Shown here piece by piece: positions 1,166 through 50,939 of a stretch of DNA of 64,000 bases. Below the pieces are notes generated by a model. It was given only the letters and a program-made list of their open reading frames with translations. It was not told the origin of the DNA and made no database searches. The stretch is from Halorhabdus rudnickae (GTDB taxonomy: Archaea > Halobacteriota > Halobacteria > Halobacteriales > Haloarculaceae), in assembly GCF_900880625.1 (NCBI RefSeq), contig NZ_CAAHFB010000005.1, positions 186,001-250,000 of the forward strand, in the 5' to 3' direction. A program made the translations under genes and the position numbers. How positions within the stretch are numbered: position 1 is the first letter of the stretch; each line of letters begins with the position of its first letter.

Positions 1166-1478
1166 CCGGTGGGTCGGTCGAAGCTATCCCCGCCAGCGAT
1201 CGCGAGCTCGTGGCCGTGGCTAGACTCTCGAGAATGCCGTGGTGAATCTTGGCAGCAATCCCGGCGTGAGTCGTCAGATTGGGCTATATACGACTTAGAT
1301 ACAGTAGATGAAATATAGCACGCACATCTTTCGGATACATCCGGTAAATCCAATCTGTTCTATAAAACCTATAATGTAGAGTGGTCCGATACATCTTATA
1401 CTGCCTCTACAGCATAGAAGGTAATTCTATCCTATGCTTCCTATACATCCTATAACGTACATGCTTTATATCTATACC
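1166..1478. other. intergenic, AT-rich with loose repeats
   Basis: No convincing gene. The second half (about 1330 to 1470) is AT-rich and holds imperfect repeats built on CCTATAAYGTA and TACATCYTATA words (for example near 1369 and 1448). It could be degenerated promoter sequence or a protein-binding region; nothing firmer can be said. Confidence 0.4.
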
Positions 1479-1543
1479 AAACCCAGTTACTACCGAAGCA
1501 CTTATTATGGTATCGCTCTATGGTTCATACAGGAGGTCACACG
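1479..1543 (+). promoter_or_regulatory. promoter/leader cassette 3
   Basis: AAACCCAGTT, ACTACCGAAG (last A of the BRE changed), TTATTATGG, CTCTATGG, AGGAGGTCAC, then ATG at 1544. Confidence 0.85.
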
Positions 1544-2101
1544 ATGGCTACAACTGGATTCGAGAACTCTCGAAAGGACGCTTACGTGTGCAAAGGGTGC
1601 GCGAACGATGCGAATCTGTCGACGTCGAACCTACGGACGGTCGAGGATTCTCAGTTCCGTCACGGCAACGGTGGGGGCCCGTGCGCTATCTGTGGCCTGG
1701 ACACGCTGGACACTCTCGCCCGGAAAGCCCTTCGAGGTCGAACGGAGCGCGACCTGGTGACGGTCGACAACCTCGAGGACGAGGTGGACAGGGTCGAGGC
1801 CGTCGCGAAGATCCTCGACGAGGCATACACCCACACTCGCGTTCGAATCGAGCTCGGCCCCGGTGAGACGCCGGAAAAGGCCGAGATAGCCCCGGGCGTC
1901 AGCATGGTCCAACACAGTGACGACGCCGACGAGACGCTTTACGTCGACATTCCCGAGGAGACGCCGGCCGGCGTCCGATCGAGGACCGACATGGTCCAGG
2001 AAACGCTGGAAGCGTGGGACTGGCGACTCGAAACGATTGACGAGCCGATGGGCGAGAACGGCCCCGACGCCCAAGTCCGCGCGGTCCCCCCGGAACAGTA
2101 G
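1544..2101 (+). CDS. zinc-ribbon hypothetical protein
   Basis: 185 residues. An N-terminal metal-binding module has CKGC at about residues 13 to 16 and CAIC near residue 48, about 35 residues apart, with a His between. The rest is acidic with alternating beta-strand and helix character. An upstream in-frame GTG at 1520 falls inside the CTCTATGG element, so the ATG with AGGAGGTCAC is preferred. Probably a nucleic-acid or protein adaptor; the function is unknown. Confidence 0.75.
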   Translation: MATTGFENSRKDAYVCKGCANDANLSTSNLRTVEDSQFRHGNGGGPCAICGLDTLDTLARKALRGRTERDLVTVDNLEDEVDRVEAVAKILDEAYTHTRVRIELGPGETPEKAEIAPGVSMVQHSDDADETLYVDIPEETPAGVRSRTDMVQETLEAWDWRLETIDEPMGENGPDAQVRAVPPEQ

Positions 2102-2130
2102 GACAAAACCCCGGGCACGGACGCCAGATG

Positions 2131-2140
2131 TCTTTTTCTC
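2131..2140 (+). terminator. possible T-rich terminator
   Basis: TCTTTTTCTC lies about 30 bp after the stop of the preceding gene, the usual form of a haloarchaeal transcription stop. Confidence 0.35.
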
Positions 2141-2290
2141 GAAGCCACAGACCAAAGCAAGAATCCGGAAGTCGGGGCCAAATCTGGGGAAAGAGAGCCT
2201 AATTCCCCGATATCCTAATCAATAGACTTCTACAACGTTCCGAGTAGACTGTCTAACTACTATCAGTTAATATATAATACTGCCCTCGTT

Positions 2291-2360
2291 AAACCTAATT
2301 GCTACCGAAACCTTTATTATTATTATATCACTCTATGAACTAAGTAGGAGGTCACGAAAG
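2291..2360 (+). promoter_or_regulatory. promoter/leader cassette 4
   Basis: AAACCTAATT, GCTACCGAAA, an expanded TATA region (TTTATTATTATTAT), CTCTATGA and AGGAGGTCAC before ATG 2361. Confidence 0.87.
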
Positions 2361-2972
2361 ATGTCAACAACTGCTGACGACGGCGAGACCGGCGAAGGGG
2401 CAAGTGCTGAAAGCGTGACGTTCGAATTCGAGGCCCAGGAGACCGTTGTGCCGGACGTGTGGGTCGAGGAGACGTTCGAGAACCGGTACGGCGATCAGCG
2501 CGCGGTCCTCGCCGGCGACACCTACGATGTGCTGATCGAGAAGGGCGTCAAGGACGAACTCGACTGGGACCAGACCCACCACAAGTGGAACGAGCGTCGC
2601 GAGGAGTGGATCGTCGACGCGGACGCCCTGGACCACCTCCAGGAAGTCGCCGACAAACACGGCGCCACTGTCGCCGCGGAGATCGACGAGATCGACGACG
2701 CGGAGACGGGCCTTCGGGAAGCCGCCGAAACCGTGGAGGAAGGCGACCGGATCACCGTCGAATACCTCCAGAAGAACGGCAACGGGATGAACTCGAAAGA
2801 GGGAACCATCTGGCGAGCGCCCTCGCGCCGGAACTCCCCCGCGATCGTTTTCGAGCGGGACGACGGCCAGACGATGCGTGTCAAGCACGACGAGTTTGGG
2901 GACGTCGGCCTGTTCACGGGCGGTCACCACCCGTTTGTGGGTAGTGTCTCGAGCATCACGATTGAACGGTAA
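2361..2972 (+). CDS. hypothetical protein with C-terminal beta domain
   Basis: 203 residues. After an acidic leader, residues about 45 to 110 contain a WNERREEWIVD stretch that superficially resembles the small strand-rich modules of annealing-helicase (HARP-like) proteins. The C-terminal 75 residues start with GDRITVEYL and look like a small beta-barrel. Similar GD(R/E) openings recur in other element proteins (11030, 20958). No catalytic motif is seen. Cassette-driven and monocistronic. Function unknown; a DNA-associated role is only a guess. Confidence 0.72.
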   Translation: MSTTADDGETGEGASAESVTFEFEAQETVVPDVWVEETFENRYGDQRAVLAGDTYDVLIEKGVKDELDWDQTHHKWNERREEWIVDADALDHLQEVADKHGATVAAEIDEIDDAETGLREAAETVEEGDRITVEYLQKNGNGMNSKEGTIWRAPSRRNSPAIVFERDDGQTMRVKHDEFGDVGLFTGGHHPFVGSVSSITIER

Positions 2973-3151
2973 TCCGCCCTCTTCTCGGTTCGTGACGCCG
3001 CTATCAGCTACCACGAGCTCGAAATGGGCTTTCGAAAAGCGCAATTGTGACGGCAGGACACCGGGTTTCTGGTGAAATACCAACGGGCCACCCAACCAGC
3101 AGGTATCTAATAGCGCGGATTTCTAGGACAGATCTATTTTAGATAAGTCCT

Positions 3152-17579: not shown

Positions 17580-17591
17580 AGGAGTCCGCCC

Positions 17592-17613
17592 CCACCCCTC
17601 ATGACAGAGTAAA
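17592..17613 (-). repeat. ORB-like repeat
   Basis: Minus-strand reading TTTACTCTGTCAT followed by GAGGGGTG. Confidence 0.75.
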
Positions 17614-17648
17614 CTACGAGGGTGGGTTCGATCGAACTCGGTGCGAAC

Positions 17649-17674
17649 ACACCCTCCCCTCATGACAGAGTAAA
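17649..17674 (-). repeat. ORB-like repeat
   Basis: Minus-strand reading TTTACTCTGTCAT followed by GAGGGGAGGGTGTG. Confidence 0.78.
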
Positions 17675-18020
17675 CTGCGTGGCTGAGAAAGAGGAAGCCA
17701 GAAGCCAGGCAGCAAAGAACCAGTCTTAGAAGGACTAAAGCTGCGGAAATAGAAGGGGAGAGTTAATCAGCTAACCGATTAAGGAAAGTATTATCAAAGT
17801 TACAATGATTCTGAGAAACATATCTAAGGTTATATTTCTCATCACTTCTAACTAGTTTGCGGTTGTTGTTAGAAGATGTTGCTAATAAAACTTCCCATAT
17901 TTAAATATTAACGTAGGATTGCCCGTTAGAGGGTCTATATCCTGAGAAAACTGGAGGTATAGTAGTTTGCAGACCTTCTACCCCTCTTCTCTCTCGAGTT
18001 ACTCACTCACGTTTGGACAG

Positions 18021-18046
18021 TTTACTCTGTCATGAGGGGAGGGTGT
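18021..18046 (+). repeat. ORB-like repeat
   Basis: TTTACTCTGTCAT then GAGGGGAGGGTGT, the mirror image of the 17649 copy around the AT-rich region. Confidence 0.78.
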
Positions 18047-18189
18047 GTGGTGAGGGAATCTTAGATGAAGGTGTCTGTAGGCAGTTCCTACCTTTTCAGA
18101 AAACACAATGATCTTGTAGAATTTCAGGGCAACACCTCAATATTTCCATACTTGCTAATTACACGACATAGAACCTCTCTATCCCCGGT

Positions 18190-18207
18190 TTTACTCTGTC
18201 AGAAGGG
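18190..18207 (+). repeat. degenerate ORB-like repeat
   Basis: TTTACTCTGTCAGAAGGG, about 45 bp before the orc1 start; the G-run is shortened. Confidence 0.6.
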
Positions 18208-18252
18208 TCCAGTAGATTTATTTATCGGGGGGAGGGATAGTTGTGGTAAGCC

Positions 18253-19632
18253 ATGCCGTCGTCAGAGAGGGGCAATCATCCTGGTGGGGAGGTCACAGAA
18301 GATGATCCCGACCAAAACGGGATCAATATTGAGGACGAACTGCTGTCTCAGCGGACCACCGTCTTCCAGAACGAGTCTCTTCTCCAGCCCTCGAAGGTTG
18401 TGAGTGAAGATCGTATCTTTGGTCGCGATGAGCAACTGTCGCAGGTCATCAATCTGTTCAAAAGAGCCTTGGACGACGTCCCTCCCAAGGATATGCTTCT
18501 ACATGGTCCATCGGGAACCGGGAAGTCTCTTATCGCGAATATGGTATCAAAGAAGCTTGTCCGAGTAGCTGAACGCAAAGATCGGCAGTTTGCATACATC
18601 AACATCAACTGTCGGAATTTTAAGACAGAGGACAAAGCTGTATACGCTATTTTGGACCAGGTTTCGGAGGAGGTGGGTGTGGACCACGATATCCCGAGAC
18701 ATGGCATATCTACGTCAGAGAAGTACGATCGTCTTTTTGACCTTATCCGTGATAACCTGGATCTCGCGATTTTGATCCTAGATGAATTGGACCGACTGAT
18801 CGGTAGTCCTGGTGGGAAGAGCTCTCAACCAGCGTTTTCGAATCTTCTTTACAACCTCACTCGAGCGTCGGATATTGGCAATCTGGATAATCAGATCGCT
18901 GTCGCAGTCCTCACGAATGATCCGGAGTCGCTCATATCTAATCTTGGGTCGAGAGTGGAGAGTTCCTTCAAGCCCCGAAAGATCCTGTTCCCGGATTACA
19001 ACGCTCAGCAGCTTCGGCAGATCCTCAGACGCCGGGAAGACGCCTTTAAAGAAGGTGCACTAGAGGATGGTGCCCTCAGACTCGCAGCTGCCCATGCGGC
19101 GTCCGGTGAAGGCGATGCCCGAATGGCGATCGATCTCCTTCGCGCCTCTGGGGAGGTATGTGACGAAAGAGGAGAGTCTACCGTCCACGATGGGCATGTA
19201 AATGAGGCAATGGAACGGATCGAGAAAGAGTACGTCTTGGATATCGTTCGGAACTCGAGCTCGCAGAAGAAGCTGGTGGCATATGCTGCTACTATTTGCC
19301 AGGGAATGAGTCACGCCGAGCTAGAAGCAAGTGGGGTCCCAGCTGTCGTCATCCATCGAGTGTACGAGAAAATGGCGGATAAACTCGATATGTCAACGAA
19401 CGAGCGCCAGACTACGCTACGATGGCTACGTGGGTTTGAGACCAATTCCCTGTTTGAATCACAAAAGAAGGGCTATGGTCAAGGAAAGGGCCAGCATCAA
19501 CATTTCAAGCTCACGAAGGATCCAGATACAGTCAAACAGGCCCTCAAGTCGAATAGCGACAGGTTCGACGCTATCGACGAGGATATTGTCCAGCAGGTAG
19601 CTACAGCCGAGTTCAACAAGCTCCTATCGTAG
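18253..19632 (+). CDS. orc1: Orc1/Cdc6-type replication initiator
   Basis: 459 residues. AAA+ core with Walker A GPSGTGKS (residues 85 to 92), Walker B ILILDELDRL (D177, E178), a sensor-1 strand (VLTNDP) and an arginine-finger region (LGSRVESS). A C-terminal winged-helix domain follows (about 355 to 459). These proteins bind ORB repeats and load MCM helicase at archaeal origins. ORB-like repeats lie on both sides, so the protein probably serves this origin. It has no promoter cassette, so initiation is likely controlled apart from the cassette regulon. Start ATG 18253; no strong SD. Confidence 0.93.
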   Translation: MPSSERGNHPGGEVTEDDPDQNGINIEDELLSQRTTVFQNESLLQPSKVVSEDRIFGRDEQLSQVINLFKRALDDVPPKDMLLHGPSGTGKSLIANMVSKKLVRVAERKDRQFAYININCRNFKTEDKAVYAILDQVSEEVGVDHDIPRHGISTSEKYDRLFDLIRDNLDLAILILDELDRLIGSPGGKSSQPAFSNLLYNLTRASDIGNLDNQIAVAVLTNDPESLISNLGSRVESSFKPRKILFPDYNAQQLRQILRRREDAFKEGALEDGALRLAAAHAASGEGDARMAIDLLRASGEVCDERGESTVHDGHVNEAMERIEKEYVLDIVRNSSSQKKLVAYAATICQGMSHAELEASGVPAVVIHRVYEKMADKLDMSTNERQTTLRWLRGFETNSLFESQKKGYGQGKGQHQHFKLTKDPDTVKQALKSNSDRFDAIDEDIVQQVATAEFNKLLS

Positions 19633-19656
19633 GCTGTCGACGATCGAAGGAGCGTC

Positions 19657-19666
19657 ATTCTTTTTA
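19657..19666 (+). terminator. possible orc1 terminator
   Basis: ATTCTTTTTA about 25 bp after the orc1 stop. Confidence 0.35.
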
Positions 19667-19689
19667 CTAAAAACGTGAATCCGGACAGA

Positions 19690-19717
19690 TTTACTCTGTC
19701 ATATGGGGGGTGTGAAC
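19690..19717 (+). repeat. ORB-like repeat
   Basis: TTTACTCTGTCAT, ATGGGGGG, TGTGAAC. Confidence 0.78.
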
Positions 19718-19874
19718 CTACTTGCGTATGGTGGTTTCAGATTCGTCTTTAAGTGCATCTAATCGTGACTCAGTTTAATATAACGTATTTGATTTAAATG
19801 CGGAGGGGACCCACCACTCTCATATTGCTGAAGCCATCTTCAGCGTTTTCGTTCTAAACGGCATATTCCGTAAT

Positions 19875-19903
19875 TTACTCTGTCATAAGGGGGGTGTGAA
19901 CCC
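19875..19903 (+). repeat. ORB-like repeat
   Basis: TTTACTCTGTCAT, AAGGGGGG, TGTGAACC; the best copy. Confidence 0.8.
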
Positions 19904-19998
19904 CCTACCGTCTGCCCTTTACCAACTCGCCTTTATATACTCGTGGTGAAGAAATTTTGTCCTATTTGCGGGTTGAGTCTAAACGCACTACGTGCTCA

Positions 19999-20021
19999 TT
20001 TACTCTGTCATAAGGGGGGTG
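19999..20021 (+). repeat. ORB-like repeat
   Basis: TTTACTCTGTCAT followed by AAGGGGGGTG. Confidence 0.78.
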
Positions 20022-20083
20022 CAATACGACTCCCGCCTGGTGGTTAGCCACTTACTCTTTAAGTGTGTGTATATGAAATATAA

Positions 20084-20103
20084 TTTACTCAGTCATGTGG
20101 GAA
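20084..20103 (+). repeat. degenerate ORB-like repeat
   Basis: TTTACTCAGTCATGTGGGAA; one substitution in the core and a short G-run. Confidence 0.6.
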
Positions 20104-20143
20104 CCCAATTTCATTTTTGATATACCCGCCAAAACGGCCGCCC

Positions 20144-20170
20144 TTACTCTGTCATAAGGGGGGTGTCAAA
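20144..20170 (+). repeat. ORB-like repeat
   Basis: TTACTCTGTCAT, AAGGGGGG, TGTCAAA. Confidence 0.76.
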
Positions 20171-20267
20171 CCGCTTCCGTATGGCGATTTACTACTAGCG
20201 CTTAAAAATGATATACCGGCAATTCTCTCTTATATTGCGTGTTGTGTCTAAACGCATTATTATCGCG

Positions 20268-20290
20268 TTTACTCTGTCATAAGGTGGGTG
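20268..20290 (+). repeat. ORB-like repeat
   Basis: TTTACTCTGTCAT, AAGGTGGGTG, only five bases before cassette 22. Confidence 0.75.
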
Positions 20291-20294
20291 TTCT

Positions 20295-22727: not shown

Positions 22728-22781
22728 ACCCTTTTCCCGTCGAGTTTCGCACGTGTCGACGATCGACCGGCCTTCAATTAT

Positions 22782-22847
22782 AAACTCAATTACTACCGAA
22801 ATATTTATTATGATACCACTCCACGGATTAGATAGGAGTGATTCACA
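22782..22847 (+). promoter_or_regulatory. promoter/leader cassette 25
   Basis: AAACTCAATT, ACTACCGAAA, TTTATTATGA, CTCCACGG, and a weaker SD (AGGAGTGATTC), ATG 22848. Confidence 0.84.
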
Positions 22848-24188
22848 ATGGAGCAGACGAAGGCAATCGGCATAGCAGACGCCGTCAAGCTCCCCCCGGA
22901 GTTTGACGGAATCGACGTCGCCATCGTCGGTGGGTTCGTTCGCGACCGACTCCGCGGGGTCGAAACGAACGATGTCGACTTGATGGTGACGGGCGTGACT
23001 CCGGGCGAGATGCGGGATCGACGGTTTCGGCCGATCGAAGGCGCGTCTTTCCCGGTCTTCCAGGATACGCTAGGCCGGGAGGTGGCCCTTGCCCGGACAG
23101 AAGAGTCTACGGGCGAGGGACACACCGGTTTCGAGGCACATGCGATCCCGGCCGACGTCCCTCATGAGGAAGCCGTCAGGCGCGACCTCGAGCGGCGTGA
23201 CTTGACGATCAACGCGCTGGCCGTCGACGCTCGGACAGGTGGGGTCTTCGATCCTCACGGCGGGATGCAGGACCTCGAGACTGGGACTCTCCGCCACGTC
23301 TCGGAAGCGTTCGCTGAGGATCCGCTACGTGTGGTTCGTGTGGCGCGCTTCCGGGCCCGGACGGGTTTCGAGATCGCTGACGAGACCCGCCGGCTCATGG
23401 CAGAGATAGCCCCCGACCTAGCGACGATCCCGGACGACCGGATCGGTGCTGAGCTCGTAAAGGCGCTCAAGCAGGCGGTTCAGCCCCGGGCGTTCGTCGA
23501 TGTACTGGACGATGTCAATGCGCTCGAAATTGCATTTCCGGAACTCGCGGCGCTCGCGAACGTTCCCGCTGGTCCGGAGGGGACCCACGAAGAGGGCGAT
23601 AGCTTGGAGCATACGCTTCAGGTCCTCGAACAGATGCATGAGCGACGTGGGAACGATGTGCCGGCTCTCCTTGCCGCCCTCGCCCACGACTTAGGGAAGG
23701 GAGAGACGCCGGCAGACGAACTTCCCGCCCACCACGGTCACGGAAAGCAAGGTGTCCCCATTGCTCGGTCGGTGCGGTCCCGTCTCGGCCTCGATCGTGA
23801 CCTCCGGGGGGTGATGGATACAGCTGCTAGCGTTCACATGAGACTCCCCCGGATCGAGGAAATGACGGCGCCGGCGATCATCGACCTCGCCAAAGAGGTC
23901 CACGGCTCTCCGCTCTCGATCGAGCAAGTGATCGACCTCGGGACGGCCGACGCGAAGGGACGGGATCCTGCCGACGACTTCCCGGATGGGATCGTCCGCG
24001 AACACCTCACCCTCGCCGTCAAGACGATCGAGGAGATCGGTGGGGCTGAGGCCATGCAAGAGCGCGATATCGACCCTACGGATGTGGGGTCTGAGATACC
24101 TGGGGAGCGGATCGGCAATCTCGTTCGCCAGGACCGGGTCGAAACCTTCCGCGACCGGGCCGGCACGCTCACCACTGTTTCTTCGTAG
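22848..24188 (+). CDS. class II CCA-adding enzyme/poly(A) polymerase family nucleotidyltransferase with HD domain
   Basis: 446 residues. Pol-beta head with GGFVRD (28 to 33) and the catalytic DVD (D42, D44), an RRD motif B (near 117), and EDPLRVVRVARFRART in the neck helix region. An HD domain follows (HTLQVLEQM, then AHDLGKGE with H280/D281). This is the bacterial class II arrangement, close to the E. coli type with HD phosphohydrolase. Archaeal tRNA CCA enzymes are normally class I and lack this architecture. It may repair tRNA ends or modify another RNA during element growth. The family is clear; the substrate is inferred. Confidence 0.88.
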   Translation: MEQTKAIGIADAVKLPPEFDGIDVAIVGGFVRDRLRGVETNDVDLMVTGVTPGEMRDRRFRPIEGASFPVFQDTLGREVALARTEESTGEGHTGFEAHAIPADVPHEEAVRRDLERRDLTINALAVDARTGGVFDPHGGMQDLETGTLRHVSEAFAEDPLRVVRVARFRARTGFEIADETRRLMAEIAPDLATIPDDRIGAELVKALKQAVQPRAFVDVLDDVNALEIAFPELAALANVPAGPEGTHEEGDSLEHTLQVLEQMHERRGNDVPALLAALAHDLGKGETPADELPAHHGHGKQGVPIARSVRSRLGLDRDLRGVMDTAASVHMRLPRIEEMTAPAIIDLAKEVHGSPLSIEQVIDLGTADAKGRDPADDFPDGIVREHLTLAVKTIEEIGGAEAMQERDIDPTDVGSEIPGERIGNLVRQDRVETFRDRAGTLTTVSS

Positions 24189-33736: not shown

Positions 33737-33779
33737 TCACATGCCGTAATTCAAAGGGGTGGAAGCACCATGTACTGGT

Positions 33780-35033
33780 ATGACCGATCCGGGCGATCAG
33801 ATCGACACGCTCCGGGAGCGTATCCAGGATTCCGAAGAGATCAGCGAGGACGACAGGGCGGCACTGCTCGATTTCAGTGACCAGCTCTTCTTGCTCCAGA
33901 CCGAGTACAGCGACCACCGGCACCTCAAGCTCCTCCGTCACTGCACGCGGATGGCCGAACACGTCGGCGGGGTGGCCGACGCGCTGGACGACCGCGAAGC
34001 GACCGAGGAACTCGTTCGCTGGATCAACCGGACCTACGACAACGAGGAGACGAACCGGGACTACCGTGTCGCACTCAGCGTCTTCGGACGGCGAACGACC
34101 GACGAGAACGGCGACGAACCGCCCGAGAGCATCGAGTGGGTGCCGTCCGGGACTTCCAACAACTACGATCCCGCACCGAACCCCGGCGACATGCTCCACT
34201 GGGAGGAAGACGTCCTCCCGATGATCGAGGCGACCAATCACAGCCGCGACGCCGCATTGATCGCCGTCGCGTGGGACTCCGGCGCGCGTAGCGGCGAGAT
34301 TCGGAGTCTCACCATCGGCGACGTCGCCGACCACCGCCACGGCTATCAGCTTACGTTTCAGGGCAAGACCGGCCAGCGGACGGTCACGCTGATCCCGTCC
34401 GTTCCGTACCTCCAGCGGTGGCTCGCCGATCATCCCGCGCGGGACGATCCGAACGCGCCGCTGTGGTGCAAGCTGAACCGTGCCGAGGAGTTCTCCTACC
34501 GGATGTTCACGAAGATCCTCGAGGGCGCTGCCGAGGACGCGGGCGTGAACAAGCCCGTCACGTTCACCAACTTCCGGAAGAGTTCCGCGAGTTATCTCGC
34601 CTCGCAGGGCATGAACCAGGCCCACATCGAGGATCACCACGGGTGGGTCCGCGGCAGCGACGTGGCGGCCCGCTACGTCAGCGTCTTCGGCGAGGACGCC
34701 GACCGCGAACTCGCCAAGATCCACGGCGCCGAGATCGACGAGGACGACGAACCCGACCCCATCGCGCCGATGGACTGTCCGCGCTGCGGGAAGGAGACGC
34801 CCCGCGAGAAGGACTTCTGTGTCTGGTGCGGCCAGGCGACCTCTCACGACGCCGTCGAGGAGATCAAGGCCGAAGAGCAGGACCTCCGGGACTCCATTCT
34901 GACCCTCATCAAGGAGGATCCCGAACTCCTCGACGACATTGAGAAGGCCCAGGAGGCGATGACGGTCTTCGAGAACCGACCCGATCTCCTCGAAGACGCC
35001 GAACGATTCCGTGAAGCGCTGAGCGACAGTTGA
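33780..35033 (+). CDS. tyrosine recombinase/integrase
   Basis: 417 residues. An N-terminal SAM-like region (about 1 to 105), then the catalytic domain: R170 (GARSGEIRSL), R266 in TNFRKSSASYL, HHGW at 286 to 289 and the nucleophile Y299 (AARYVSV). A C-terminal zinc ribbon (CPRCGKETP ... CVWCG) and an acidic helical tail follow. It matches the haloarchaeal phage-type integrase family with a terminal ribbon. The box-II histidine is replaced (TNFR). ATG 33780 is chosen over GTG 33759. Placed at the compositional break, it is the likely agent of integration. Confidence 0.88.
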   Translation: MTDPGDQIDTLRERIQDSEEISEDDRAALLDFSDQLFLLQTEYSDHRHLKLLRHCTRMAEHVGGVADALDDREATEELVRWINRTYDNEETNRDYRVALSVFGRRTTDENGDEPPESIEWVPSGTSNNYDPAPNPGDMLHWEEDVLPMIEATNHSRDAALIAVAWDSGARSGEIRSLTIGDVADHRHGYQLTFQGKTGQRTVTLIPSVPYLQRWLADHPARDDPNAPLWCKLNRAEEFSYRMFTKILEGAAEDAGVNKPVTFTNFRKSSASYLASQGMNQAHIEDHHGWVRGSDVAARYVSVFGEDADRELAKIHGAEIDEDDEPDPIAPMDCPRCGKETPREKDFCVWCGQATSHDAVEEIKAEEQDLRDSILTLIKEDPELLDDIEKAQEAMTVFENRPDLLEDAERFREALSDS

Positions 35034-37136: not shown

Positions 37137-38522
37137 TCAATGGTCGTGATCGTGGTGTTCGATCTCCGGGTGCTGCTCGGCATACGTCGACGGTGTCTCC
37201 TCGAACGTTCGCTTGCAGGTCGTTGAGCAGAAATAGTACGTTGTCCCGTCGTGGACTGTACTCGGTTCGGAATCATCGGTCCGCATACCGCACACGGGAT
37301 CACGATACTGCCCGGGCGCCCCGAGTCCCCGTCGGTAGACGTATAGGAGGAACCCCGAGAGTGCGAAGGCGATCAGGTTGAGATAGAACGTGTAGTTGAG
37401 TTCGAAGTACGTCTGTTCGGTCGCGGTCTCGCCGCCGGCCAGATCAGGAACGATGCCGAACGCGTCGAACAGCAGTTCCATGAGGAAGCCCGTGAAGGCC
37501 ATCGTCACGAAGAACACCCCGAGGATGTACAGCATTACCTTCCAGCCGTAGTACTTCCGGTAGACGTTGAGGACCGGAATCGTGATGAGGTCGGCGTAGA
37601 CGAAGGCGATCACGCCGGCGAAGCTGATCCCGCCACCCCAGAGCGCGACCGCGAACGGGACGTTGCCCATGCTGCCGACGAAGCTGATAACGGCGATGGC
37701 GACGCCCATGATGGCGTTCTCGGCGGTCACGAGCAGGCCGTCACCCTGGACGAACAGCGTGTTCCACACCCACTGCGGGACGAAGACGATGACGAACCCC
37801 GAGACGAGAAAGCCGGCGATGACGTCCGTCCAGATCATCGACCACTCCTTGCGAAACTGGTTGCCGACCTTGTACCAGCCACCCCACGAGAGGAGTTCCT
37901 CGCGCCAGCCGCCCGCGCTCGAGGACTCCTGTAGATAGGTCTCCATGCATCCTTCCGAACAGAACTGCAGCGTCTCCCCGCCGTCGGTCGTGACCGTGTA
38001 CTCCTCGGTCCCTTCCATGCCGCACGTGAGATCCTCAGTCGTGCCCGATTCGCGGTCGCGCGCATTCAGCGTCTCTCGGACCTCTGCGAAGAGGCTTTCC
38101 GGGAGCGTGAGATGCACGATCACCGCCATGACGGCGATGAGAACGAGCCCGCCGAGGAGTTCCGCCACGAGGAACTCCCAGCCCAGCAGAAGCAGGATCA
38201 TCAACCCGAGTTCGACGATGAGGTTCGTCGACGCGAACATGAACGCCAGGAAGTTCACGGCGTGAGCGCCCTTCTTGAACAATCCCTTGCCGATGGCGAC
38301 CGCGCCGAAGCTGCAGCCGCTGCTGGCCGCGCCGAACAGCGTCGCTTTGGTGAGTCCGCGCAGATCGCCATCGCCGAGGACCCGCGCCATGCGCTCTTTG
38401 GAGACGTAGACCTGGACGAGACTCGTGATCGTCAGGCCCATGATGATCGCCCACGCGGCCGTCCAGAGAAACCCCACGCCGATCCGGAGGGATTCGAGGA
38501 CGCCATTGATAATCGGTGACAT
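37137..38522 (-). CDS. COG0701 permease with internal TRASH and C-terminal YHS domains
   Basis: 461 residues. Eight or more membrane helices in two halves, with the family signature GAASSGCSFGAVAIGKGLF (about 70 to 88). Between the halves a TRASH module (CGMEGTEEYTV ... FCSEGCMETYL) and at the C-terminus a YHS module (DPVCGM ... YYFCSTTCKRTF) plus a His/Asp tail bind metal. Families of this type export copper, arsenic compounds or other soft metals. ATG 38522 matches the first membrane helix; a longer frame upstream is out of context. Substrate undetermined. Confidence 0.85.
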   Translation of the reverse strand: MSPIINGVLESLRIGVGFLWTAAWAIIMGLTITSLVQVYVSKERMARVLGDGDLRGLTKATLFGAASSGCSFGAVAIGKGLFKKGAHAVNFLAFMFASTNLIVELGLMILLLLGWEFLVAELLGGLVLIAVMAVIVHLTLPESLFAEVRETLNARDRESGTTEDLTCGMEGTEEYTVTTDGGETLQFCSEGCMETYLQESSSAGGWREELLSWGGWYKVGNQFRKEWSMIWTDVIAGFLVSGFVIVFVPQWVWNTLFVQGDGLLVTAENAIMGVAIAVISFVGSMGNVPFAVALWGGGISFAGVIAFVYADLITIPVLNVYRKYYGWKVMLYILGVFFVTMAFTGFLMELLFDAFGIVPDLAGGETATEQTYFELNYTFYLNLIAFALSGFLLYVYRRGLGAPGQYRDPVCGMRTDDSEPSTVHDGTTYYFCSTTCKRTFEETPSTYAEQHPEIEHHDHDH

Positions 38523-38831
38523 GGGAATACACTCGTCGGGATCGCCTTTTGCAATTGTGCTTAGCAAACAGGTCCCAGACACCGATCGGATCATTGGAAA
38601 CGAAACTGAATTTCGTCATTCGCTTCAGTCGCAGGCACACCGTGCTGCCGTGGGACCACGACGACCCACCGCGTGCCGCTTTCGTGGTTTATATGGTGGG
38701 CATTTTGCCCCCAGTTCGAATGAATACACCGACGAGATTGTATCGCGTGCCGGAATCGTCAACGGAGGCACGTCAGTCCCTTTGAAATTTGAGCAGAAAA
38801 TCGCCTGAAACAGCCACCCGTTGGTATACAC
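38523..38831. other. divergent promoter region
   Basis: No gene. It separates the permease from the ABC exporter and should hold promoters for both. Confidence 0.4.
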
Positions 38832-48275: not shown

Positions 48276-50939
48276 TCATCCTCTCTGAGCATTGGTTTCA
48301 CTGTCTGTCTCCGGCTTGATTCTGGAGAGCCGCATTGCGTTTCCGGTAACGGCTGTCGTCATCCCGGCGTCGCCAGCGAGGACCGCCAACCAGATCGGCA
48401 CCACCCCGAACGGGACTGCCACAGCCAGACCGGCTTTGACGGCGAGACTCGACCAGATGTTCTGCCGGATGACGCCATTCGCGTCATGTGATAGTTCGTA
48501 GAGGTACGGCAACTTCGAGAGGTCGTCGCTCATCAGCGCGATGTCTGCCGTTTCGAGGGCAGTATCCGTGCCGGCGGCCCCCATCGCGACGCCGACAGTC
48601 GCTGTCGCAAGTGCCGGCGCGTCGTTGACACCGTCGCCGATCATCGCGACACCGCCGTACTGGTCGTCGAGTTCGTTGATCGCCTCGACCTTCTCGTCGG
48701 GCAGGAGTTCCGCGCGGAACTCGTCGACGCCGACTTCGGCGGCAATCGCCCGGGCGGTCCGTTCGTTGTCTCCCGTGAGCATAATGATGTGTTCGACGCC
48801 GCGGTCGTGGAGCTGTTGTATCGCCTGCTTCGCTCCGGGCCGAATATCGTCAGCGACGGCGATGACACCCTCAATTTCGTCTTTGGTGCCGACGAGGACC
48901 ACGGTCTTCCCCTGTGACTGGAGTTCGGGCACCGTCTCCTCGAGGAGATCGACACAGTCGTTGCGCTCGCACATCTGCTGACTCATCGTCGTGACGACAC
49001 CGCCGTCGGTCGTCGCGTGGACATGGTCGAGGTCGAAGCCGAGTTCTTCGAACAAGGCAGGCTTGCCCGCGTAATGTTTCTTCCCGTCGAGATCGGCTTC
49101 GACGCCTTTGCCGGTGATACTCTCGAAGTCCTCGATCGTCGGTTCCCCGACATCGCTCTCGTCGGCTAATTCGACGATAGCGTCGCCGATTGGGTGTTCG
49201 GATCGCGATTCCAGACCGCGAGCACACCGAAGGACATCTTCCTCACTGTTGCCATTCAACGGGACGACATCAGTAACAGTGAGTTCCCCCTTTGTGATCG
49301 TTCCTGTCTTGTCCATCGCGATCGCTTCGACGGCCCCCATCGCTTCGAGGTGGTTGCCACCCTTGATAAGGACGCCATTATTTGCAGCGCTGGTAATACC
49401 CGATACCACGGACACTGGCGTGGAAATGACGAACGCACAAGGACACGCCAACACGAGGAGTGTGAGGCCGTAGACGATGAACGTCGGCCACGACGCCCCG
49501 AACAAAAGCGGAGGGATGATCGCCACCAGAACTGCGAAGCCGACGATGACCGGCGTATAGTACGAGGAGAAGCGCTCTACGAACTGCTCGCGCTCGGTCT
49601 TGTTGGACTGTGCGTCTTCGACCATCTGTACGATGCGTGAGAGCGTATTATCGCCCGCTTCCGAGGAGACCTCGACCTCGAGATAGCCCTGTTCGTTGAT
49701 CGTCCCGGCGTACACCTCGTCGCCCGGCGTCTTGTCCACGGGCACGCTCTCCCCTGTGATCGGGGCCTGGTTGACAGCACTCTCCCCGTCGAGAACCTCG
49801 CCATCCATTGGGATCTTTTCGCCCGGACGCACGACGACGACATCGCCGATAGCCACGTCATCCACGGGCACCGTGACCTCCTCGCCATTTCGTTTCACTG
49901 TGGCTTCGTCCGGTGAGAGGTCCATCAACTCTTCCAGTGAGTTCCGGGCGCGGTCCATCGAGTAGCGTTCGAGCAGTTCCGCGACGCTGAACAGGAACGT
50001 GAGGGTGGCAGCCTCGAAGTACAGTGATTTTCCGAAGACGAGGCCAGCGATGATGGCGCCGCTGATGGCGATCGTCATCAACAGATCGATGTCGAGGTTC
50101 CGGTTCAGCGCGGAGTAGTAGCCGTTGCGGAAGATGATCGGACCGGCGACACCAACGGCAACGAGAAAGAGGATATCGGCGAGAAGTAACTCGCGACCGG
50201 CGAGATCAGTCACCAAGACGTTTTGCCCGGTGAGGATGAACTCGAAGAGAAGTCCGAGTGCGACGAATCCGCCGCTGATCCAGGTCTTGATCGCCCGCGA
50301 ACTGGTCCAGACGCTCTCGCGTTCGTCGGAACCACCATCCACTGTGGCTTCGTCGGTCGCGGTCGAGTCGGTCACCTCGTAGCCTGCACTCTCGATCGCG
50401 TCGACGATCCTCGATGATGAGAGGGAGTCACCATCGTAGGTCGTCACTACCTTCCTTGTCGTCGGCTGGGTCTCATAACTCGAAAGTCCCGATAGGCCAT
50501 CGAGGGCATTCTCTATCTTTCCTGCACAGGACGGACAGTCCATTTCGGGGACAGTGAAGGTCGTAATCGTCTCGGCCTGGTTTTCGACCGTGTACCCGGC
50601 TTTTTCGACGCGTTCAGCGATTTCGTCCGGATGTGTTTGGTCCTCTTCGTAAGTGACAGAAAGTGTCCCTGTCGTCACTTGGGGATCAACAGCACTGATC
50701 CCGTCGAGTTTCCGGACGCTGTTTTCCACTTTCCCCGCACAGGAGGGGCAGTCCATCTCGGGCACCGAAAACTGGGCGACATCATCCTGATTCGACGCAG
50801 TCACAGTGACACTGTTAGATTCATGATCACTGGTGTGATCATAATCATGAGTATGATCGTGTCCGTGATCGTGGTTATCTACATCATGAGAATGTGATGT
50901 CTCATGTGAAGTGCTTGAATTCCGATCGGACGAGTTCAT
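48276..50939 (-). CDS. heavy-metal P1B-type ATPase, probably Zn/Cd/Pb class
   Basis: 887 residues. A His/Asp-rich N-terminal tail (about 10 to 42) and two HMA domains (MDCPSCAGKVE and MDCPSCAGKIE) precede the ion channel motif CPCAFVISTP, the DKTGT phosphorylation site, and the GDGxNDAPAL hinge. The last helices read WLAVLAGDAG ... VTGNAMRL, with the Asp and VTxNAxRL of the ZntA class rather than the MxxSS of copper pumps. Exports divalent heavy metals with ATP. First gene of an efflux operon. Confidence 0.9.
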   Translation of the reverse strand: MNSSDRNSSTSHETSHSHDVDNHDHGHDHTHDYDHTSDHESNSVTVTASNQDDVAQFSVPEMDCPSCAGKVENSVRKLDGISAVDPQVTTGTLSVTYEEDQTHPDEIAERVEKAGYTVENQAETITTFTVPEMDCPSCAGKIENALDGLSGLSSYETQPTTRKVVTTYDGDSLSSSRIVDAIESAGYEVTDSTATDEATVDGGSDERESVWTSSRAIKTWISGGFVALGLLFEFILTGQNVLVTDLAGRELLLADILFLVAVGVAGPIIFRNGYYSALNRNLDIDLLMTIAISGAIIAGLVFGKSLYFEAATLTFLFSVAELLERYSMDRARNSLEELMDLSPDEATVKRNGEEVTVPVDDVAIGDVVVVRPGEKIPMDGEVLDGESAVNQAPITGESVPVDKTPGDEVYAGTINEQGYLEVEVSSEAGDNTLSRIVQMVEDAQSNKTEREQFVERFSSYYTPVIVGFAVLVAIIPPLLFGASWPTFIVYGLTLLVLACPCAFVISTPVSVVSGITSAANNGVLIKGGNHLEAMGAVEAIAMDKTGTITKGELTVTDVVPLNGNSEEDVLRCARGLESRSEHPIGDAIVELADESDVGEPTIEDFESITGKGVEADLDGKKHYAGKPALFEELGFDLDHVHATTDGGVVTTMSQQMCERNDCVDLLEETVPELQSQGKTVVLVGTKDEIEGVIAVADDIRPGAKQAIQQLHDRGVEHIIMLTGDNERTARAIAAEVGVDEFRAELLPDEKVEAINELDDQYGGVAMIGDGVNDAPALATATVGVAMGAAGTDTALETADIALMSDDLSKLPYLYELSHDANGVIRQNIWSSLAVKAGLAVAVPFGVVPIWLAVLAGDAGMTTAVTGNAMRLSRIKPETDSETNAQRG

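Follow-up and report, generated by a model that had tools for sequence, protein, structure and literature searches.

The occurrence of a CCA-adding enzyme on a haloarchaeal mobile element has already been described for HGTV-1, whose protein gp242 (YP_008059417) was published as a CCA enzyme and annotated under tRNA maturation (PMC8651126). HGTV-1 is a lytic tailed virus with 36 tRNAs, RtcB, and two RNA ligases. Related enzymes of PHROG 2244 are carried by other large mobile elements, namely jumbo and Vequintavirinae phages, and for those of jumbo phages a function in RNA repair has been proposed, namely the mending of tRNA 3′ ends (PMC7824862). The E. coli protein Cca (b3056), a multifunctional CCA addition/repair protein, is the sole CCA enzyme of its bacterium and a chromosomal, housekeeping one. 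In class II enzymes such as Cca, the ED..R motif selects nucleotides and has a templating role, and the HD domain of E. coli Cca carries phosphatase/phosphodiesterase-type activities. Haloarchaeal class I enzymes (TIGR03671) carry out the same reaction with a different class of nucleotidyltransferase, and we know of no archaeal class I CCA enzyme with an HD domain. The gene analyzed here lies in Halorhabdus rudnickae, within a stretch of 64,000 nucleotides (hereafter, the window) that corresponds to positions 186001-250000 of C5, which is 295 kb long and one of the 6 contigs of the genome. Its features are as follows, in window coordinates.

22780..22831, + strand: cassette copy of the CCA gene (repeat family D1), element-specific, putative promoter
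22796-22801, + strand: BRE-like CCGAAA in that copy, from the sequence
22804-22810, + strand: TATA-like TTTATTA in that copy, from the sequence
22834..22839, + strand: Shine-Dalgarno-like AGGAGT, 8 bases 5′ of the ATG, read from the sequence
22848..24188, + strand: coding sequence of a predicted class II CCA-adding enzyme with HD domain, 446 aa, uninterrupted from ATG to stop
22923..23294, + strand: nucleotidyltransferase head, residues 26-149 (Pfam PF01743, PolyA_pol, E=2.5e-18; alignment)
22929-22946, + strand: GGFVRD, residues 28-33 (alignment)
22971-22979, + strand: DVD, residues 42-44 (alignment)
23193-23201, + strand: RRD, residues 116-118 (alignment)
23316..23330, + strand: EDPLR (ED..R motif), residues 157-161 (alignment)
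23364..23552, + strand: RNA-binding neck domain, residues 173-235 (Pfam PF12627, PolyA_pol_RNAbd, E=2.8e-10)
23607..23831, + strand: HD phosphohydrolase domain, residues 254-328 (Pfam PF01966, HD, E=2.4e-6)
23685-23690, + strand: HD pair H280-D281, invariant in aligned relatives

The alignment with E. coli Cca (about 40% identity, with a full-length HD domain in both) brings GG.VRD, D.D, RRD, EDPLR, and the HD site into register, and the residues of the latter (H255, H280, D281, H298, H330, and D368) show no substitution in any of 33 aligned relatives. Pfam gives the domain order head, RNA-binding neck, and HD, with which an AlphaFold2 model (mean pLDDT 93.2, pTM 0.90) agrees, and almost the entire chain of this model can be matched to class II enzymes of known structure (Z up to 26.7). 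The class II plan that the first-pass annotation had read from GGFVRD, DVD, RRD, and an HD domain is therefore borne out by alignment, Pfam, and model alike. The family similarity far exceeds chance: the top family model was PHROG 2244 (tRNA nucleotidyltransferase, E=1e-102), and NF008137 of NCBIfam, which models the E. coli-type CCA enzyme, matched at E=2e-88 with 297 bits, below its curated equivalog cut-off of 451 bits, so that the protein is placed within this family without counting as strictly equivalog to its enterobacterial member. Of 55 positions in the head that hardly vary among bacteria, the protein keeps 41, including the catalytic ones, and the positions R86 and K87 (numbered by the window protein), which are basic in bacteria, hold E and S. 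Judged from its alignment, domains, and modeled fold, the window protein is an E. coli-type class II CCA-adding enzyme with intact catalytic residues, and its nucleotidyltransferase activity is probably kept.

The closest relatives were found on other haloarchaeal mobile elements. The best match in 50,697 phage records was HGTV-1 gp242, at 51% identity over 95% of the query, followed by a next best of 37%; the two proteins share their domain plan, their acidity, and a location on a haloarchaeal mobile element, with the differences that the window copy sits on a plasmid-like contig in which no tRNA gene was found and in another promoter setting. Of the matches listed from 72,556 plasmid records, a single one was archaeal, the plasmid protein WP_302083212 of Salinibaculum sp. 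KK48, and a class-wide search added a further copy on a 392-kb contig of the haloarchaeon G457. These last two, on a plasmid or large secondary contig, have the class II plan with HD domain, are longer than the window protein, and are about 39% and 32% identical to it, respectively. In a tree of 40 rows, in which gamma- and betaproteobacterial and phage enzymes were sampled and the few, long-branched outgroups fix neither the root nor the ultimate donor, the four haloarchaeal copies form a single clade (98/94) that excludes the bacterial and phage enzymes of the tree, with the window protein and gp242 as sisters (100/99) and the jumbo/Vequintavirinae enzymes (≤37% identity to the window protein) on a separate branch. 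The clade stays when the longest branches are removed (99/96). The AU test weakly rejects joining the copies to the sampled phages (p-AU 0.023) and does not formally reject joining them to bacterial CCA enzymes (p-AU 0.149). All four copies are acidic (pI 4.6-5.0, with 4.8 for the window protein), in contrast to E. coli Cca at pI 6.2.

The distribution of this lineage is sparse. Matches were obtained in 2/146 genomes of the family, 2/392 and 1/392 of the order, and 2/391 of the class, with a weak match in genome G303 (E=4.6e-4), and the one or two matches per about 390 genomes lead us to reject a widespread haloarchaeal chromosomal family. Phylum-level matches in G672 and G597 come from fragmented assemblies, on contigs of 4-6 kb, and resemble other bacterial enzymes; they are probably contamination or a separate transfer. 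A pattern scan of genome contigs with the two closest proteins gave no match, and one of viral contigs returned HGTV-1 again together with a few distant contigs. Comparison of the four loci revealed no common gene near the CCA gene, and a neighborhood shared with HGTV-1, the KK48 plasmid, or G457 was accordingly rejected, the CCA gene alone being in common. An acquisition from bacteria or phage had been proposed by the first-pass annotation, and the part of this proposal that stands is an old bacterial or phage origin, which is likely given the class II plan. That a gammaproteobacterium or one of the sampled tailed phages donated the gene recently is disfavored by the tree, the 51% best match to a haloarchaeal virus, and the acidic composition, and on these grounds the haloarchaeal copies are best described as an old, rare, halo-adapted mobile-element lineage and no fresh bacterial import.

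The host already possesses a CCA enzyme of its own. As had been expected for an archaeon, the chromosome-sized contig C1 encodes an archaeal class I enzyme (TIGR03671, E=3e-154), which was the sole match to this model genome-wide, the window protein not being matched. CCA was encoded in 0/30 host tRNA genes examined, which makes the cell dependent on CCA addition and the substrates plentiful. Contig C5 was searched for tRNA genes with ARAGORN over its whole length and with Rfam over positions 1-280000; none was found, which removes plasmid tRNA genes as a candidate substrate. Moreover, no RNA ligase or kinase was found in the neighborhood of the CCA gene.

We infer that C5 is a megaplasmid from a cdc6/orc1 gene that lies between origin-like repeats in the same module as the CCA gene, together with BREX- and Hma-like defense genes. 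Specifically, the repeats TTTACTCTGTCATAAGGGGGGTG and their inverse flank cdc6/orc1 (18253-19632) within window positions 17591-20292 and likely mark a replication origin. Elsewhere on C5, at 23-46 kb (loci L008 and L009) and 149-160 kb (L014), are the BREX genes BrxHII, PglZ, PglX, and BrxC and an Hma-like set. PADLOC gave no match to any defense family. Just past the cassette module, window positions 33759-35033 encode a tyrosine integrase that ends in a zinc ribbon at its C-terminus. No att-like long repeats were found, and comparison of the integrase flank with the rest of C5 gave a single 19-base match, which rules against an integrase-bounded insertion. Further along the window are an ArsP-type permease with a YHS domain (37137-38594) and a long open reading frame with a His-rich N-terminus (48276-50939) that, by eye only, may be a metal transporter; together they are possible metal-resistance cargo.

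The cassette upstream of the CCA gene is one of about 29 copies in window positions 167-28272, most of them immediately 5′ of a plus-strand open reading frame, so that the earlier placement of the gene behind a cassette promoter is upheld, with the promoter function of the repeat remaining putative. Its consensus,.AAACCCAATTACTACCGAAA.ATTTATTATAAT..C.CTCTATGG.CTAGAT, totals 70.6 bits across 60 columns, with the BRE/TATA-like core inside. A scan of 142 genomes of the family matched the window's own genome alone (18 forward and 2 reverse), and a reversed-control pattern gave 0 matches in the same genomes. The conservation is unusually long, reaching far past BRE and TATA, and suggests a dedicated regulator or transcription factor; TFB genes are located on C5 at 17.7-18.2 kb and 60.3 kb. 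The genes before and after the CCA gene each have their own cassette copy, and it is therefore probably transcribed singly. A cassette with 2 mismatches was also observed on C3, a 10.8-kb contig of the same genome (L035), adjoining a diverged copy in the opposite direction.

Overall, these comparisons favor a role in auxiliary maintenance and repair of tRNA 3′ ends, to which we assign a probability of roughly 0.58. Under this reading, the CCA gene would be expressed singly from its copy of the promoter cassette that the element repeats, and its product would act on host tRNAs as a second CCA enzyme beside the class I enzyme, restoring C and A where 3′ ends have been shortened or damaged. The HD domain would heal ends by stripping 2′,3′-cyclic or terminal phosphates, thus making them extendable or rejoinable, and the large element may benefit from translation being sustained when host defenses, toxins, or stress attack tRNAs. 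We infer both activities, the substrate, and this benefit from the retention of all catalytic residues, whereas a relative that has probably lost the function has decayed at exactly those sites, and from the confident class II fold, the missing poly(A) polymerase signature, and host tRNA genes that lack CCA. The reading is further consistent with the occurrence of the same lineage in HGTV-1 alongside RtcB, RNA ligases, and tRNAs, and with the repair role proposed for jumbo-phage enzymes (PMC7824862). Counting against it, the repair setting of the HGTV-1 type is missing, given that C5 yielded no tRNA gene and the neighborhood no RNA ligase or kinase, the class I enzyme of the host may make the plasmid enzyme redundant, and the E and S replace basic residues in the loop at R86 and K87.

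The relative mentioned above, the G457 copy, is an intact long open reading frame (positions 1213-3027 of locus L044, on contig C3 of that genome) that keeps 27/55 of the head positions near-invariant in bacteria. In its nucleotidyltransferase site, G29, D44, R116, D118, E157, and R161 are gone, whereas every HD-site residue is kept, and Pfam detects the HD domain alone; its nucleotidyltransferase activity is probably lost. This pattern indicates that the HD activity may be under selection in its own right, and it lends support to a different explanation, in which a metal-dependent 2′,3′-cyclic phosphodiesterase/phosphatase, serving end healing or the removal of a cyclic-nucleotide signal, would be the selected activity and CCA addition would be secondary. 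Such an activity is also what the host cannot obtain from its class I enzyme, which has no HD domain. However, the nucleotidyltransferase catalytic residues are kept in 3/4 haloarchaeal copies, the site being complete in the window, HGTV-1, and Salinibaculum proteins over a deep divergence, and the HD region is less conserved overall, so that we consider a primarily HD-driven selection unlikely.

The rare and patchy distribution, together with a host that has a class I enzyme, would also fit a CCA gene passed between mobile elements as redundant cargo with no specific benefit here. This appears rather improbable for a gene that has its own cassette promoter, recurs on elements without common neighboring genes, and has retained intact catalytic residues in three of four copies. 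Polymerization on another RNA, which the first-pass annotation had also entertained, has lost ground: an enzyme that tails transcripts of the element or the host, whether poly(A)-polymerase-like or of another kind, would belong to the same superfamily, and switches between the two enzyme types are known in bacteria (PMC8208693), but it is very unlikely here, because the PAP signature [LIV][LIV]G[RK][RK]F.[LIV]h[HQL][LIV] is absent from the window protein while the same scan finds it in E. coli PcnB, which disfavors a poly(A) polymerase identity, and because the protein lies nearest CCA enzymes and far from PcnB in the tree.

Relative to what was described for HGTV-1, the locus adds a plasmid-borne sister of the viral enzyme in a host with a class I enzyme, on an element in which no tRNA gene was found, and a four-member haloarchaeal clade, one member of which combines a degenerate nucleotidyltransferase with an intact HD site. 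Class II and class I CCA enzymes are thereby encoded in a single archaeal cell, and the question of why mobile elements carry CCA enzymes becomes testable free of the confounder of element-encoded tRNAs, with the G457 relative as a natural separation-of-function comparison. More speculatively, and with a low probability in our estimation, the old element-specific CCA/HD lineage of haloarchaeal plasmids and viruses could serve as a counter-defense against nucleases that damage tRNA ends, in which HD end-healing can become the main function, as in G457. If this were true, it would point to a so far undescribed defense in haloarchaea that targets tRNA ends.
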